Shown here one piece after another: positions 5,859 through 10,757 of a stretch of 11,100 nucleotides of DNA. Both the position numbers and the translations under genes were made by a program. The notes under the pieces are model-generated. The model saw only the letters and a program-made list of their open reading frames with translations. It was not told the origin of the DNA and did no database searches. Every line of letters begins with the position of its first letter. The first letter of the stretch is position 1. Origin of the DNA: Nitrospinota bacterium (lineage in GTDB: Bacteria; Nitrospinota; Nitrospinia; UBA9942; JAHJSF01); NCBI GenBank assembly GCA_018830405.1, contig JAHJSF010000054.1:1-11100 (forward strand). The letters are read 5' to 3'.

Positions 5859-6251
5859 ATGAGTCTGATTATTAACAAGGAGAGTGCCGATAAAGTCGAA
5901 AAAATATTGGAGCGGTTTGTTGAGGAGTCTGGGGCAACTTATGTTTTGCTGACAGACATGGGGGGGGGTATGCTCTTCGAGTCTGGGGCAGATGTCGTCA
6001 GCTATAATGGTGATGCCTTGGCCGTTCTCTCGGCTGCCAACTACGCGGCCACCAATGAAATAGCCAAGCTTATAGATGAGGAGAGTTTCTCCTTGCTCTT
6101 CCACAGGGGGAACAATGAGAATATACACTTTACGAAAGTCTCCCCTGATGTATTAATGATCGTTCTATTCAAACCATTCCTATCCCTTGGGCTGCTAAGG
6201 CTTAAGATAGGCAAAATTCAGGACGAAATTGCCTCTTTACTCGGGAAGTAG
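5859..6251 (+). CDS. mglB: MglB-like roadblock/LC7 domain protein
   Basis: A 130-aa single-domain roadblock protein. It closely resembles Myxococcus MglB, the partner and GTPase-activating protein of MglA: the middle segment ALAVLSAANYAATNEIAKLIDEESF and the FHRGNNENIHFTKV strand follow the MglB pattern, and LSLGLLRLKIGKIQDEIASLL matches its last helix. It lacks the longer C-terminal tail of Myxococcus MglB (159 aa from memory). No signal peptide or membrane segment is seen, so it is cytoplasmic and probably dimeric. AGGGGA at 5849-5854 supports the start. The mglA-like gene follows after 2 bp, so the two products are very likely made together. Expected role: stimulating GTP hydrolysis by, or localising, the neighbouring GTPase. 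Confidence 0.9.
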   Translation: MSLIINKESADKVEKILERFVEESGATYVLLTDMGGGMLFESGADVVSYNGDALAVLSAANYAATNEIAKLIDEESFSLLFHRGNNENIHFTKVSPDVLMIVLFKPFLSLGLLRLKIGKIQDEIASLLGK

Positions 6252-6253
6252 CA

Positions 6254-6880
6254 ATGGCGACAATAAACCTAAAAGATAAGTCTATTAGGATAAAACTTGT
6301 ATACTATGGTCCGGGTAGAAGCGGCAAAACAACGAACCTGGAATATATCTACAATAAAATCCAAGAAAATGATGAGAAACAGAAGGGGAAAATGGTTTCC
6401 ATCGACACAAATGGGGACAGGACTATGTTCTTTGACTTCTTCCCCATTGATCTTGGTAAAATCAACGGCTTTGCCCTCAAGTTACAACTTTACACAACCC
6501 CCGGGCAGGTAAAATATGAATTCACCCGTAGGTTGGTTTTAAAAGGGGTTGACGGCATAGTATTCGTAGCTGATTCTATGGCCTCGAGACAGGAGGCAAA
6601 TGCACAATCCTTTGAGAATTTGAAAGAAAATCTAGCCTTTCACAACAAAACTCTTTCGGATATAAAAGTCGTTTTCCAATGGAACAAGAGGGATATAGAT
6701 GAAAACTTAATCCCCTTGGCGAGTGTTGAGGAGATGGAGAAAACGCTTAATTCCAAGTATGGATATACGTCATTCCCGGCAAGCGCAGAAACAGGGCTGA
6801 ATGTTTTTAAAACGGTTAATTATATTGCCAAGGAAACTGTTAAACACGTAATTGCCCTAAACGACATCAAAAAGGGATAG
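6254..6880 (+). CDS. mglA: MglA-like small Ras-family GTPase
   Basis: A 208-aa GTPase of the MglA family, which sets cell polarity and controls type IV pilus and gliding motors in Myxococcus. P-loop GPGRSGKT is at 19-26. The switch region GDRTMFFDF contains R56, corresponding to the intrinsic arginine finger of Myxococcus MglA. TTPGQ (81-85) carries the MglA-specific TPGQ in place of the usual DTAGQ, with Q85 as the expected catalytic glutamine. NKRD (144-147) is the guanine-specificity motif. The segment between P-loop and switch I (QENDEKQKG) is slightly longer than in Myxococcus MglA. There is no lipidation motif or membrane segment. It is adjacent to the mglB-like gene and upstream of a PilB-type ATPase, which suggests regulation of that motor. 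Confidence 0.94.
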   Translation: MATINLKDKSIRIKLVYYGPGRSGKTTNLEYIYNKIQENDEKQKGKMVSIDTNGDRTMFFDFFPIDLGKINGFALKLQLYTTPGQVKYEFTRRLVLKGVDGIVFVADSMASRQEANAQSFENLKENLAFHNKTLSDIKVVFQWNKRDIDENLIPLASVEEMEKTLNSKYGYTSFPASAETGLNVFKTVNYIAKETVKHVIALNDIKKG

Positions 6881-6891
6881 GATATTCCTAT
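6877..6891 (+). promoter_or_regulatory. Palindrome covering the ribosome binding site of the 147-aa gene
   Basis: ATAGGA and TCCTAT flank a three-base TAT centre. The left arm contains the AGGA ribosome binding site (6879-6882) and the mglA stop codon; the right arm ends directly before the ATG at 6892. A six-pair A/T-rich stem could partly mask the site until ribosomes finishing mglA open it, giving translational coupling. The function is inferred. Confidence 0.45.
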
Positions 6892-7335
6892 ATGGATTAT
6901 AAACAATTGAAAGAGAATTTAGTCCCATTCTTTCAAGGTGATAGTGTGGATGTTAAAACTGCCGAAGAGGCTATCAACAACGCCCAACCGGAAAACACCT
7001 TTGACGAGAGGATGCTTATAGTTCTAAGAAACATAACAACAAGTGCTAAAGTTGGCGCCTCGTTACAAGCGTTGGGGAGTGACATTCTGGGCAACTCCGA
7101 ATACTTCTCTGATAAAGGTTTGCGGAAAAAGGAAAAAGACGAAAGACTTGAGCAATTACTCTCTGCCGGAAATTATCAGGAAAATGAAGAATTGTTTACT
7201 TTGAGCATGTTCCGAACATACTTGGAGACCATACTAAACAAACAGCTCTATGAAATAAATTTAAAAATAGAGGAAAACCAACGCCTGTTACAAAATATGC
7301 AAAGCTGGGCACTCGTTAAAACTAAAAAGAAATAG
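6892..7335 (+). CDS. Unrecognised 147-aa helical protein in the mglBA-pilB cassette
   Basis: I do not recognise this protein. It is predominantly helical-looking, charged and soluble, with no signal peptide, membrane segment or cysteine. An N-terminal part (about 1-65) with hydrophobic FDERMLIVLRNITTSAKVGASLQALG is followed by a lysine/glutamate-rich middle (KGLRKKEKDERLEQLL). A C-terminal helix with heptad-like spacing (about 105-140, YLETILNKQLYEINLKIEENQRLLQNM) could be a coiled coil, ending in a basic KTKKK tail. It starts 11 bp after mglA with AGGA at 6879-6882, so it is almost certainly cotranslated with the GTPase. It may be an effector or adaptor between GTPase and ATPase, but that rests only on position. 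Confidence 0.8.
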   Translation: MDYKQLKENLVPFFQGDSVDVKTAEEAINNAQPENTFDERMLIVLRNITTSAKVGASLQALGSDILGNSEYFSDKGLRKKEKDERLEQLLSAGNYQENEELFTLSMFRTYLETILNKQLYEINLKIEENQRLLQNMQSWALVKTKKK

Positions 7336-7377
7336 AGAATAGGCAGAATTAAAATGAAAAGGAAACAGTAAATTCTT

Positions 7378-7402
7378 AATGATGTATGTCAGATACATCG
7401 TT
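7378..7402 (+). repeat. Hairpin between the two unrecognised genes
   Basis: A 10-bp stem (7378-7387 with 7393-7402, one T-G wobble) encloses a five-base loop, GTCAG. The downstream TTATTACTTT is only loosely T-rich. It could be a leaky terminator or a processing/stability hairpin that sets different levels of the genes on either side. It occupies the 100-bp gap between 7335 and 7436. Confidence 0.5.
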
Positions 7403-7435
7403 TATTACTTTCAGAATGCATAGAGGAGAAGAAAA

Positions 7436-8296
7436 ATGCCTGACGAAAACACCCTGGAAAACGAAGATGAAAACGAAAACAACGCCTTTGACACAATAGA
7501 CAAACTTTTTTCAGATAATCCGGTGATAAAAACTCAAGACGACATAGGCGGCTACGATGATTCAAAAGAAGTAGTCCCCGAAACAAAAGAGGACAAAGGA
7601 GAGCTTGAAGAAACAACTGCGGATAGACTCCCCAAAGAAGTATTAACCGTATCAGATAGCAGCCAAGAGCCTCTATTAATGGAGACCAAACCAAGCCATG
7701 ATAAAAAAATCGAAAAGAGTAAAGAATTAGACGAAGCAGGTAATATGGGTGATTTGGATATGCTTGAAGGGTATGCCATGGCCCTGGAATGGGAATTTAC
7801 CGACAAGGATATAAAAAAATTCAACTACTACCTAAATAAGCTGGCCGCGCAGTATACTGACAGTCACAACCAGATTTTAATAAAGCTTTTGCGCGCCATT
7901 GTTAATTACATAAGCAGCGCCCAAGAAAAAGCGGTACCGGAAACCATGAGTATTTTGTCCAAAGTATTAAAGACATTAAAAATGGTCAATTCAGGTGATA
8001 AGGATAAATCTTTTGTAAAGGCAAAAATACGGGAGTCATATCAAGAGGTTCTAAACCTAAAAAAGCGTATATCCTCGTACAACAAAGAATTCAACGAAGA
8101 AAAAGAAGAAGAGGAAAAGGAAGAGGTGATTGCTAAGGAACCAACGGTAAGCATTCAACCCCCGCAAGAGTCTATCCCCCAGAGCCTACTTTCCAGATTG
8201 GATGAACTGCTCTTGAAGCTGGATGAATATGAAAAGAGAATTTCTTATTTGGAAGAACAAAACAGGAAATTGAAAAATATTATCATTGGGCTTTAA
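7436..8296 (+). CDS. Unrecognised 286-aa acidic coiled-coil protein
   Basis: I do not recognise this protein. Residues 1 to about 105 are strongly acidic and low-complexity (ENEDENENNAFD, ETKEDKGELEETT), so probably disordered. A helical domain follows (about 105-210, DMLEGYAMALEWEFTDKDIKKFNYYLNKLAAQYTDSHNQILIKLLRAIVNYI). After it come a glutamate-rich stretch near 220-231, a proline/glutamine linker near 238-250, and a C-terminal coiled coil (about 253-286, LLSRLDELLLKLDEYEKRISYLEEQNRKLKNI). There is no signal peptide, membrane segment or cysteine. GAGGAG is at 7422-7427, about 8 nt before the ATG. This layout suggests a scaffold or adaptor. Its place between the GTPase and the pilus-type ATPase makes it a candidate link, but no function is shown. 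Confidence 0.82.
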   Translation: MPDENTLENEDENENNAFDTIDKLFSDNPVIKTQDDIGGYDDSKEVVPETKEDKGELEETTADRLPKEVLTVSDSSQEPLLMETKPSHDKKIEKSKELDEAGNMGDLDMLEGYAMALEWEFTDKDIKKFNYYLNKLAAQYTDSHNQILIKLLRAIVNYISSAQEKAVPETMSILSKVLKTLKMVNSGDKDKSFVKAKIRESYQEVLNLKKRISSYNKEFNEEKEEEEKEEVIAKEPTVSIQPPQESIPQSLLSRLDELLLKLDEYEKRISYLEEQNRKLKNIIIGL

Positions 8297-8312
8297 AAAT
8301 AGCGCAAATTGG

Positions 8313-8345
8313 GCCCATCAATTTTCTTGGGCAGCACAAGCTGCC
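8313..8345 (+). repeat. Two mutually exclusive hairpins before the ATPase gene
   Basis: GCCCA (8313-8317) can pair with TGGGC (8328-8332). Alternatively GGCAGC (8330-8335) pairs with GCTGCC (8340-8345) around an ACAA loop. The two stems share bases 8330-8332. The second stem is followed by TTAAAC, not a U-run. This resembles a small switch or attenuator, but could be chance structure in the 67-bp gap. Confidence 0.4.
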
Positions 8346-8363
8346 TTAAACAAATAAACCTAA

Positions 8364-10757
8364 ATGCTCAATATGAACAGCAATGGCATAGACCAGACTC
8401 AATTCGATTTAAAATTAGAGCAGGCTGAATTTTATGCCAAGCAGGGACTTTCGGATGAAGCTGACGCAGTATACCAAGATCTGTTGGACATTCTTAAAAA
8501 ACTCCCCGAAACAAAATCCACTCAGTTACAGATAAAGCAGTTAGAGTCTATTCGTAATGGCATAGGCGCCAGTATTTCGTTAAAGGCCAGTGATAAAGAA
8601 GCCGGCTCTCCAGTTGAGAGTAAACCTGATGAGGAACTCTATGCGGAATCAACAGCCTTTGTCGACCTTGGGTTTTATGACAAGGCTATAGTTAACAACA
8701 AAATACTCATTGAACGAAACTTTAAAATTTATGAGTCTATCTCCACATTTGTTTCCTGTTCCAAAACAATAGAGCAGGAAATGGAGGCAGTTAAATATCT
8801 TGATTCCATTGTAAAATCTTCTTCCTCAGATACAGAAAAAAAGGATGTCGCCTACTATTTCCTCTCCTTTCTTTACGAAAAAATAGGCAACTTTGGCCGG
8901 TCTATAAGCTCTTTACAAAATATCAAGGCCACTGATAATTTTACCGACTACTCTAATAGGGTAAAATTTCTAGGTTCAAAGATAAAGGGAAAAACCAGGT
9001 TTGACTACCTCCTCTCCGAACAAATAATTATCCAGAAGGACTTAAAGCAGGCTATAGAACTATCGAAAAAAACCCAAAAATCGGTTGAATATATTCTTAT
9101 CAACAAATTTTCAGTTGCAATAGACCAACTGGGCAAATCACTGGGAATGTTTTACGGATATCCCTTTGTAGATATATCTCAGGAAGGTCTTAAAACAGGC
9201 CTTTTCGGCAAACTAAAGCATAAATACTTAAAAAACAACCATTGGGCTCCTCTGGAGATATCCGGCAAAAAACAGACGGTAGACGTTGTTGTAGCCAATC
9301 TTGATATGCAATGTACTGAAGACATAAAAAAGATTTATGTCGGTTATAAAACATTTCTTCATATAGGTATACAGGAACATATAGACGAATATATAAACAA
9401 ACAATATGACAACGAAACCCCGATCGATAATACTCCGGCAGAAGAGGGTAAGGGGGAGGACGTTTCGGGATTCATGGATGGGATAGAAGAAGATGAACTT
9501 GAAGATATAGTAATAGAAAAAGAAGATAAGGCACAAGATGATGAGGAGGAGGCAGCCCCTGACAGCAAAGTAATACTATTCGCCAATAAAATGATTGTGG
9601 ATGCCCGTCGCAGAAGGGCCTCAGATATCCACATAGAACCCTCAACCCACAGCCTGAGCACAGACATCCGTTTCAGAGTAGACGGCCTTTGCCAACCTTA
9701 TAGAAAAATACCAAATAGTTTCAGCCGACAGGTCATTTCACGAATTAAGATTATGGCTGATATGGATATTGCCGAAAGACGTAAGCCAATGGATGGAAAA
9801 ATACTGTTCAAGAGTAAACAAACAGGAAAGGTTGAACTTCGGGTCGCCACTTTACCGACAAGCGGCGGCAAAGAAGACGTGGTTCTCAGGCTTCTTCAGA
9901 GCGGCAAACCTGCCGGCCTGGCCGAGTTGGGAGTACTTGAATACAACATTGAACCTTTTCTAAAAATCATCCATAAACCATATGGACTTGTTTTGGTTGT
10001 TGGCCCTACCGGTTCAGGTAAAACAACAACCCTTCATTCAGCTCTAAGTATTATTAATACCCCCGAAAAAAAGATATGGACAGCAGAGGACCCTGTGGAG
10101 ATAGACCAAAAAGGAATCAGACAATCGGAGGTTCACCGTAAAATAGGTTTGGACTTCGCAACGTTGTTAAGGGCTTTCCTGAGGGCCGACCCTGATGTAA
10201 TTATGGTAGGAGAGATGAGAGATGTAGAAACAACAAAGATAGGCATCGAGGCGTCTCTAACCGGTCACTTGGTCTTTTCAACTCTACACACCAATAATGC
10301 CCCGGAAACAATAACAAGGCTTATTGAAATAGGGATAGACCGCACCAACTTTGCGGATTCCCTACTTGGAATACTGGCCCAAAGATTGGGGAGGAGGCTA
10401 TGCAATGAATGCAAAAAAGAGGCTCCTGCCACCAAAGAAGAAATAGACTCCCTGATAAAAGAATTCGGCTCTGACAATATGGGCATGCTCAACAAAATAG
10501 ACAAAGACAACCTGAAACTCTACCACCCCGTAGGATGTGCTAACTGTGCCAATACCGGTTACAGGGGAAGAATAGGTTTTCATGAACTACTCATCAATAA
10601 CGATACTATCAAGGCTCTCATTAAAAAAGAGGCCGCTGTTGAAAGGATAAGGGCTGCGGCTGTAGCAAATAATATGTACACCCTAAAACAAGACGGGATA
10701 ATCAAGGTTCTCGAGGGCATTACCGACATGACAGAGGTGAGAAGGAACTGCATATAA
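8364..10757 (+). CDS. PilB/GspE-family ATPase with TPR-like N-terminus and MshEN-like domain
   Basis: A 797-aa secretion/type IV pilus extension-type ATPase. Residues 1-205 are helical and TPR-like (QAEFYAKQGLSDEADAVYQDLL, AFVDLGFYDKAIVNN, FLSFLYEKIGNFGRSISSL). Residues 213 to about 275 resemble an MshEN domain but lack the usual glycine of its RLGxxL motif, so c-di-GMP binding is doubtful. An acidic linker follows (about 360-400). The ATPase core is complete: Asp box DIHIE (421-425), Walker A GPTGSGKT (547-554), Walker B VIMVGE (612-617), His box with H635 and H642, and a CXXC...CXXC zinc site (C680, C683, C725, C728), typical of PilB/GspE and absent from PilT. It would power assembly from the cytoplasmic face of the membrane. 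No Shine-Dalgarno is evident; ATG 8373 is an alternative start. Confidence 0.93.
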   Translation: MLNMNSNGIDQTQFDLKLEQAEFYAKQGLSDEADAVYQDLLDILKKLPETKSTQLQIKQLESIRNGIGASISLKASDKEAGSPVESKPDEELYAESTAFVDLGFYDKAIVNNKILIERNFKIYESISTFVSCSKTIEQEMEAVKYLDSIVKSSSSDTEKKDVAYYFLSFLYEKIGNFGRSISSLQNIKATDNFTDYSNRVKFLGSKIKGKTRFDYLLSEQIIIQKDLKQAIELSKKTQKSVEYILINKFSVAIDQLGKSLGMFYGYPFVDISQEGLKTGLFGKLKHKYLKNNHWAPLEISGKKQTVDVVVANLDMQCTEDIKKIYVGYKTFLHIGIQEHIDEYINKQYDNETPIDNTPAEEGKGEDVSGFMDGIEEDELEDIVIEKEDKAQDDEEEAAPDSKVILFANKMIVDARRRRASDIHIEPSTHSLSTDIRFRVDGLCQPYRKIPNSFSRQVISRIKIMADMDIAERRKPMDGKILFKSKQTGKVELRVATLPTSGGKEDVVLRLLQSGKPAGLAELGVLEYNIEPFLKIIHKPYGLVLVVGPTGSGKTTTLHSALSIINTPEKKIWTAEDPVEIDQKGIRQSEVHRKIGLDFATLLRAFLRADPDVIMVGEMRDVETTKIGIEASLTGHLVFSTLHTNNAPETITRLIEIGIDRTNFADSLLGILAQRLGRRLCNECKKEAPATKEEIDSLIKEFGSDNMGMLNKIDKDNLKLYHPVGCANCANTGYRGRIGFHELLINNDTIKALIKKEAAVERIRAAAVANNMYTLKQDGIIKVLEGITDMTEVRRNCI

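Follow-up and report, generated by a model that had tools for sequence, protein, structure and literature searches.

The window analysed here, the entire contig C20 (11,100 bp) of a Nitrospinota bacterium whose assembled genome is 1.42 Mb and 87% complete, carries a cassette in which genes for an MglB/MglA-type switch lie beside the gene for a PilB-type motor ATPase with a tetratricopeptide repeat (TPR) domain at its N-terminus. The link between MglA and this ATPase recurs over many genomes, mostly of sulfate-reducer type. The conserved gene association is real, and no paper describing linkage of MglA with a TPR-bearing ATPase was found in the open-access literature searched. As to function, we give about an even chance to the cassette encoding a small-GTPase-gated extension motor of a type IV pilus-type machine, with MglA-GTP acting via the motor's own TPR domain. 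The features of the cassette are as follows.

5859-6251, plus strand: MglB-like roadblock protein, 130 aa (Robl_LC7 E=5e-7), presumed GTPase-activating protein (GAP) of MglA
6254-6880, plus strand: MglA-like GTPase, 208 aa (Ras E=3e-7, small_GTP E=5e-10)
6892-7335, plus strand: P3, 147 aa, no family (no Pfam/NCBIfam match)
7436-8296, plus strand: P4, 286 aa (E=1e-19 to a family profile made without the window copy; no Pfam family above threshold)
8364-10757, plus strand: TPR-MshEN-T2SSE ATPase, 797 aa (T2SSE E=5e-116, complete catalytic motifs)
8379-8978, plus strand: N-terminal TPR domain of the ATPase, about residues 6-205 (1-210), from profile and model
9003-9422, plus strand: PilB-type N-terminal region with MshEN, about residues 214-353 of the ATPase (MshEN E=1.5e-6)

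These five open reading frames (ORFs) and their intergenic gaps of 2, 11, 100 and 67 bp agree with a first-pass annotation made from the DNA letters alone, and a Pfam/NCBIfam scan identified a roadblock protein, a Ras-type GTPase and a T2SSE ATPase among them and placed the other two in no family. No terminator-like sites were found between the cassette genes on the plus strand, and a scan for intrinsic terminators and promoters within the gene set gave nothing clearly beyond chance.

The TPR domain was missed by that annotation. A profile made from three ATPase N-termini (A2) matches engineered TPR proteins (E=1e-21), and another profile, of the TPR region in ATPases linked to MglA, matches the window ATPase with E=6e-57. 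In a two-sequence AlphaFold model, residues 11-250 are predicted as paired helices at moderate to high confidence (helix pLDDT mostly 65-95), while residues 263-360 are not resolved. Foldseek with the N-terminus model places TPR proteins on top, with E no better than 2e-3. Positions 214-353 of the N-terminus profile match the PilB N-domain. The typical motif of MshEN is RLG, which is RFD in the window ATPase and R-[FY]-x in most of the 43 aligned sequences. Walker A, the Walker B/Asp box (GEMRD/GETRD), the His box (STLHTN) and the zinc-type CxxC are conserved in the 43 with few exceptions, so the ATPase appears to be a working motor. The same four elements argue against another reading, namely that the cassette serves polarity or signalling and that its ATPase has become a regulator which no longer drives a filament. 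The sensory surroundings, the distinct clade (both described below) and the altered MshEN motif would suit such a regulator, which we nevertheless consider improbable.

To find relatives, the ATPase N-terminus was searched as a profile in 297 genomes from the phylum that includes G101, a Desulfobacterales metagenome-assembled genome that holds locus L006. The search yielded 33 full-length matches, spread over 32 genomes, and others that match mainly in the MshEN part. The regions of all full-length matches were compared together with L005, which is the closest cassette (ATPase 55%, MglA 70% and MglB-like protein 66% identical to those of the window), making 34 loci, and 8 partial matches were taken as paralogues. 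By tblastn, a same-strand MglA lies near the TPR-bearing ATPase in 27 of 34 loci, MglB in 22 and a relative of P4 in 26; 25 of the 34 loci have MglA together with P4, and 22 have all three. These counts replace an ORF-based tally (26/20/25 of 34), which undercounted in the G+C-rich locus L103. MglA, MglB and P4 are near none of the paralogous ATPases (0 of 8). The linkage of MglA with the ATPase is therefore not a matter of chance, since it is found in 27 of 34 TPR-type loci and in 0 of 8 paralogues. Generally, the order is MglB-MglA-P4-ATPase, and in one branch 5-9 genes separate MglA and the ATPase. The evolutionary distances of MglA and ATPase are correlated (r=0.92, 0 of 2000 permutations), which shows joint inheritance. 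Two of the seven loci without MglA (L034, L108) lie on very short contigs. That the MglAB pair accidentally neighbours an unrelated ATPase, or that the contig is mis-binned, would fit the absence of the cassette from all other genomes searched in the window's class; such an accident is largely refuted by the 27 of 34 loci, the MnmE protein of the contig supports correct binning, and we hold it very improbable.

The first-pass annotation had proposed that switch, candidate adaptors and motor form one dedicated five-gene unit, an idea that rare adjacency or middle genes standing alone would speak against. Neither was found for MglA, P4 and the ATPase, and the tblastn counts support a recurrent unit of the switch, one candidate adaptor (the P4 family) and the motor. 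P3 falls outside this unit, and among the loci compared the exact five-gene set occurs in the window only.

The combination can be compared with a pathway studied in Myxococcus xanthus. There, MglA-GTP, and not MglA-GDP, binds three C-terminal TPRs of SgmX (PMC7668184), and PilB needs SgmX to be at the pole, while direct contact between SgmX and PilB was not detected (PMC11580455). Both systems have an MglA-type GTPase with MglB, TPR repeats (the MglA-GTP binder in Myxococcus), a PilB-type extension ATPase and receiver proteins in the network (PMC7668184, PMC7519303, PMC11580455). Unlike in Myxococcus, the TPR is here fused to the motor, the switch and motor genes are linked, and P4 has no identified Myxococcus counterpart. 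A second parallel is Synechocystis, in which PATAN regulators (PixG and others) bind PilB1 (PMC12288463). Receiver-PATAN proteins are likewise found near the PilB-type ATPase in cassette-bearing genomes, and one lies near pilMNOPQ in the window's genome; the described system is without MglA and its ATPase differs at the N-terminus (PMC12288463). In a survey of MglA, Group 1 and 5 proteins are occasionally near PATAN genes in widely varying neighbourhoods; the sections of it that we draw on mention no linked PilB-type ATPase, whereas such linkage is usual in the one ATPase clade described here (PMC4316618). The actinobacterial conservon CvnA-D also joins a roadblock protein, an MglA-type GTPase and an unknown protein in a conserved operon, but the window cassette is without its type of histidine kinase and has a motor ATPase (PMC13343842).

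Gating by MglA-GTP via the TPR domain is favoured because the cassette joins a TPR domain, a PilB-type motor and MglA/MglB, with PATAN-receiver genes near the relatives. In such a mechanism, MglB as the GAP would set the nucleotide state and place of MglA, and MglA-GTP would engage the motor via the TPR domain fused to its N-terminus. The PilB-type ATPase would then dock on the pilus base and power it solely at the places and times of MglA activity, and P4 would serve as a scaffold that connects sensory signals, such as those of the PATAN-receiver and Che-type proteins found with other members of the family. The machine in the window's organism would be the pilMNOPQ, pilin and PilT set on other contigs. 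Direct binding of MglA to the TPR domain, action at the pole and pilus extension as the output are what we infer from the gene and domain arrangement. The in-cis TPR domain could stand in for a separate adaptor. More tentatively, the motor ATPase itself may be a small-GTPase effector, in which MglA-GTP binds the TPR domain in cis and gates docking or activity, and in which a TPR or a GAF N-terminus decides between MglA and another signal.

Because the TPR domain here belongs to the same polypeptide as a PilB-type motor, and its gene lies next to that of MglA, the contact that is missing from the Myxococcus route from MglA-GTP to PilB could be built into one protein and be testable in vitro. 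In bearers of the cassette, the switch that decides where the cell pulls may act directly on the pulling motor. Polarity GTPases would govern surface machines not only in myxobacteria and Bdellovibrio but also in many bacteria of sulfate-reducer type, about whose surface behaviour little is known.

Several points weigh against gating of the motor by MglA. TPR domains have many binding partners, and the correlation of r=0.92 is also expected from common descent. Three genomes (G175, G332 and G374) have a TPR ATPase and no detectable MglA, which means that MglA is not obligatory, and in G333 MglA is encoded elsewhere. Nearly all cassettes are without adjoining pilus structural genes, and PilC (T2SSF) was not found in the window's 87%-complete genome.

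The pilus parts of that genome were sought family by family. The pilMNOPQ genes are on C15, PilT is on C3, and five pilin-type genes are on C51, C175 and C25. The first-pass annotation had noted that no pilus genes lie in the window and had supposed a machine encoded elsewhere or a distinct role for the ATPase; pilM-Q, pilT and pilins are indeed elsewhere in the genome, but PilC was not found there. No CheW match was found in the window's genome either, although pilMNOPQ, PilT and pilins are present, and the lack of PilC and CheW may reflect gaps in the assembly or an unusual machine. A receiver-PATAN-roadblock fusion of 383 aa is encoded near pilMNOPQ on C15, on the opposite strand (L129:6815-7966), and its receiver-PATAN part shares 28-34% identity with proteins from the cassette regions of other genomes.

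In those other genomes the surroundings of the cassette are sensory, with PATAN-receiver, CheA/CheY/CheB, HDOD, PilZ and roadblock proteins. For example, a divergent operon at L104 encodes HDOD, three CheB-type receivers (one with PATAN), CheY and CheA, and the surroundings at L099, L100, L105 and L111 are similar. At L005, MglA is separated from P4 by DUF4388/PATAN genes, and the gene after the ATPase encodes a HAMP/Zn-ribbon protein. Three loci (L084, L089 and L111) have pilin-type genes close to the cassette, and at L111 there is a secretin as well.

The type of machine was also judged from the ATPase itself. It scores 506.8 bits on TIGR02538 (PilB equivalog; cut-off 675.65) and 456.7 bits on TIGR02533 (GspE equivalog; cut-off 630.25), under the cut-off in both cases; two ATPases beside PilC in G100 score 576-581 on TIGR02538 and are also under it. 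The nearest solved relatives are PilB. In the catalytic-domain tree, the TPR and GAF types and the C-terminal fragment L037 form one clade (support 100), which is separate from GspE and from the ATPases beside PilC, with long reference branches. Compared with type IVa PilB, the window ATPase thus shares the MshEN-type N-domain, the T2SSE core, intact motifs and the best solved relatives, and differs in its extra TPR domain, separate clade, sub-cut-off score and position away from pilC. One alternative is that it powers type II style secretion or export, or a polysaccharide- or surface-related process, instead of pilus extension, with MglA placing it at the pole. Its place outside both equivalogs and in its own clade, the absence of PilC from the window's genome, and the canonical PilB-type ATPases beside PilC that G100 has in addition would all be compatible with this. 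PilB gives the higher of the two equivalog scores and the best solved relatives, pilins are near the cassette in three loci, and the own genome has pilMNOPQ and pilins, so that secretion or export seems rather unlikely to us.

Within the clade, the TPR type forms two groups separated by the GAF type, and no order of TPR and GAF gain and loss is claimed because the internal branches are weakly supported. The TPR profile from MglA-linked ATPases matches all TPR-type loci with E of at most 5e-26, including those without MglA, and the 8 paralogues with E of at least 0.3. The lower scores of the MglA-less loci are not used, since the profile was built from MglA-linked ATPases. A GAF domain occupies the position of the TPR in each of the four scanned paralogues. 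The sister ATPases at L115-L122 (e.g. L122:8454-10772) are about 770 aa long and have no MglA, MglB or P4 nearby. It is possible that the GAF-bearing sisters are a second signal-gated pilus motor.

With the same motor and machine, MglA could instead act via P4 as a separate adaptor similar to SgmX or SopA, and the TPR domain would bind another partner, e.g. PilM or a PATAN regulator. The P4 family stands between MglA and the ATPase in most loci and keeps an I-D-x-L-F motif and a helical domain, and PATAN-receiver genes are near the cassette, all of which are consistent with an adaptor. However, at L091 and L092 MglA is directly next to the ATPase (24 and 7 bp) without P4 or any other adaptor, and MglA linkage goes along with the TPR domain, although it does so with P4 too. 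We hold transmission through P4 to be less likely than gating via the TPR domain. Just before the P4-less pairs lies a gene that we take, by sequence, to encode a MinD/ParA-like ATPase (L091:7235-8428, L092:6962-8155).

P4 is most likely a helical and coiled-coil scaffold linking sensory inputs. By alignment and model, the window copy has an N-terminal TIDKLF, a disordered linker, a helical domain (about 104-220) and a C-terminal coiled coil. Members of the family (~220-640 aa) have the N-terminal I-D-x-L-F motif, a long disordered part, the helical domain and often an extra C-terminal domain, which the window P4 is without. By eye, this domain of the long relatives was a candidate CheW, which was rejected (no Pfam match, hhalign probability 1.3%, no solved relative). 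The model of the helical domain matches the five-helix fold of CheA P1 over its full length (Z 11.8-12.7 over ~120 residues), and unrelated bundles rank equally. No phospho-accepting His is conserved in this domain among 25 aligned sequences. Because of these two observations the likeness is suggestive and a lead only, and a sequence link with CheA P1 found no confirmation (hhalign 0.9%, weak domain scores).

P3, in contrast to P4, was not borne out as a general part of the cassette. No homologues were found in 100 relatives, and its C-terminal motif EINLKIEENQRLLQ is a weak match to P4-neighbour proteins in four loci, L084, L085, L086 and L089 (profile E=9e-5; best of 200 shuffles 0.0014). 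The matched proteins come after MglA in L084, L086 and L089, and a similar protein is present in L085. In the favoured reading P3 is a lineage-specific accessory.

The cassette itself was likely acquired horizontally, because relatives in the class are without it and, in the ATPase tree, the window ATPase is nested within sequences from the other phylum; that every relative has lost it is less likely. The full-length ATPase N-terminus is absent from 76 other genomes of the class and from some 210 other genomes outside it, and MglA is absent from six genomes of the window's order. The contig is correctly binned, because its MnmE is closest to same-order genomes (47-50%, 400-453 bits, vs 38-45%, 288-372 bits for cassette-bearing genomes). 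A tRNA-Arg and housekeeping genes lie 5' of the cassette, and 3' of the ATPase a partial gene on the opposite strand runs into the contig end. Genomes of the class also have runs of 2-3 neighbouring proteins, with open frames of ~790-1170 aa, that match the ATPase profile in its MshEN part only (G021:C1:1514236-1521307, G034:C9:16485-22949 and others).

The GTPase of the window has the P-loop GPGRSGKTT, the arginine-finger motif GDRT, G3 TTPGQ and G4 NKRD. GPGRSGKTT, NKRD and GDRT/GERT are present in 27 of 27 aligned MglA, with an intrinsic arginine finger beside the G2 threonine, and at G3 most relatives have TVPGQ, the Group 1 motif. The coupled roadblock gene expected of an MglA GTPase is present as the MglB gene 2 bp upstream, and its product scores 52 bits on the NCBIfam MglB model, under the cut-off. 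MglA proteins of the window's class (L014, L015, L016, L018) carry a C-terminal extension of ~190 residues and adjoin a roadblock gene. At L006 MglA occurs in a second setting, in the company of a TPR-like protein, a PilZ protein and a DUF4388 protein that bears cyclic-nucleotide-binding domains, and the same genome encodes a TPR-type ATPase as well; the TPR-like protein was rejected as a relative of the ATPase N-terminus (weak match only, E=0.014). In four genomes (L106 and L112-L114), two genes that resemble those for dissimilatory sulfite reductase subunits lie beside the cassette, upstream of the HDOD gene.

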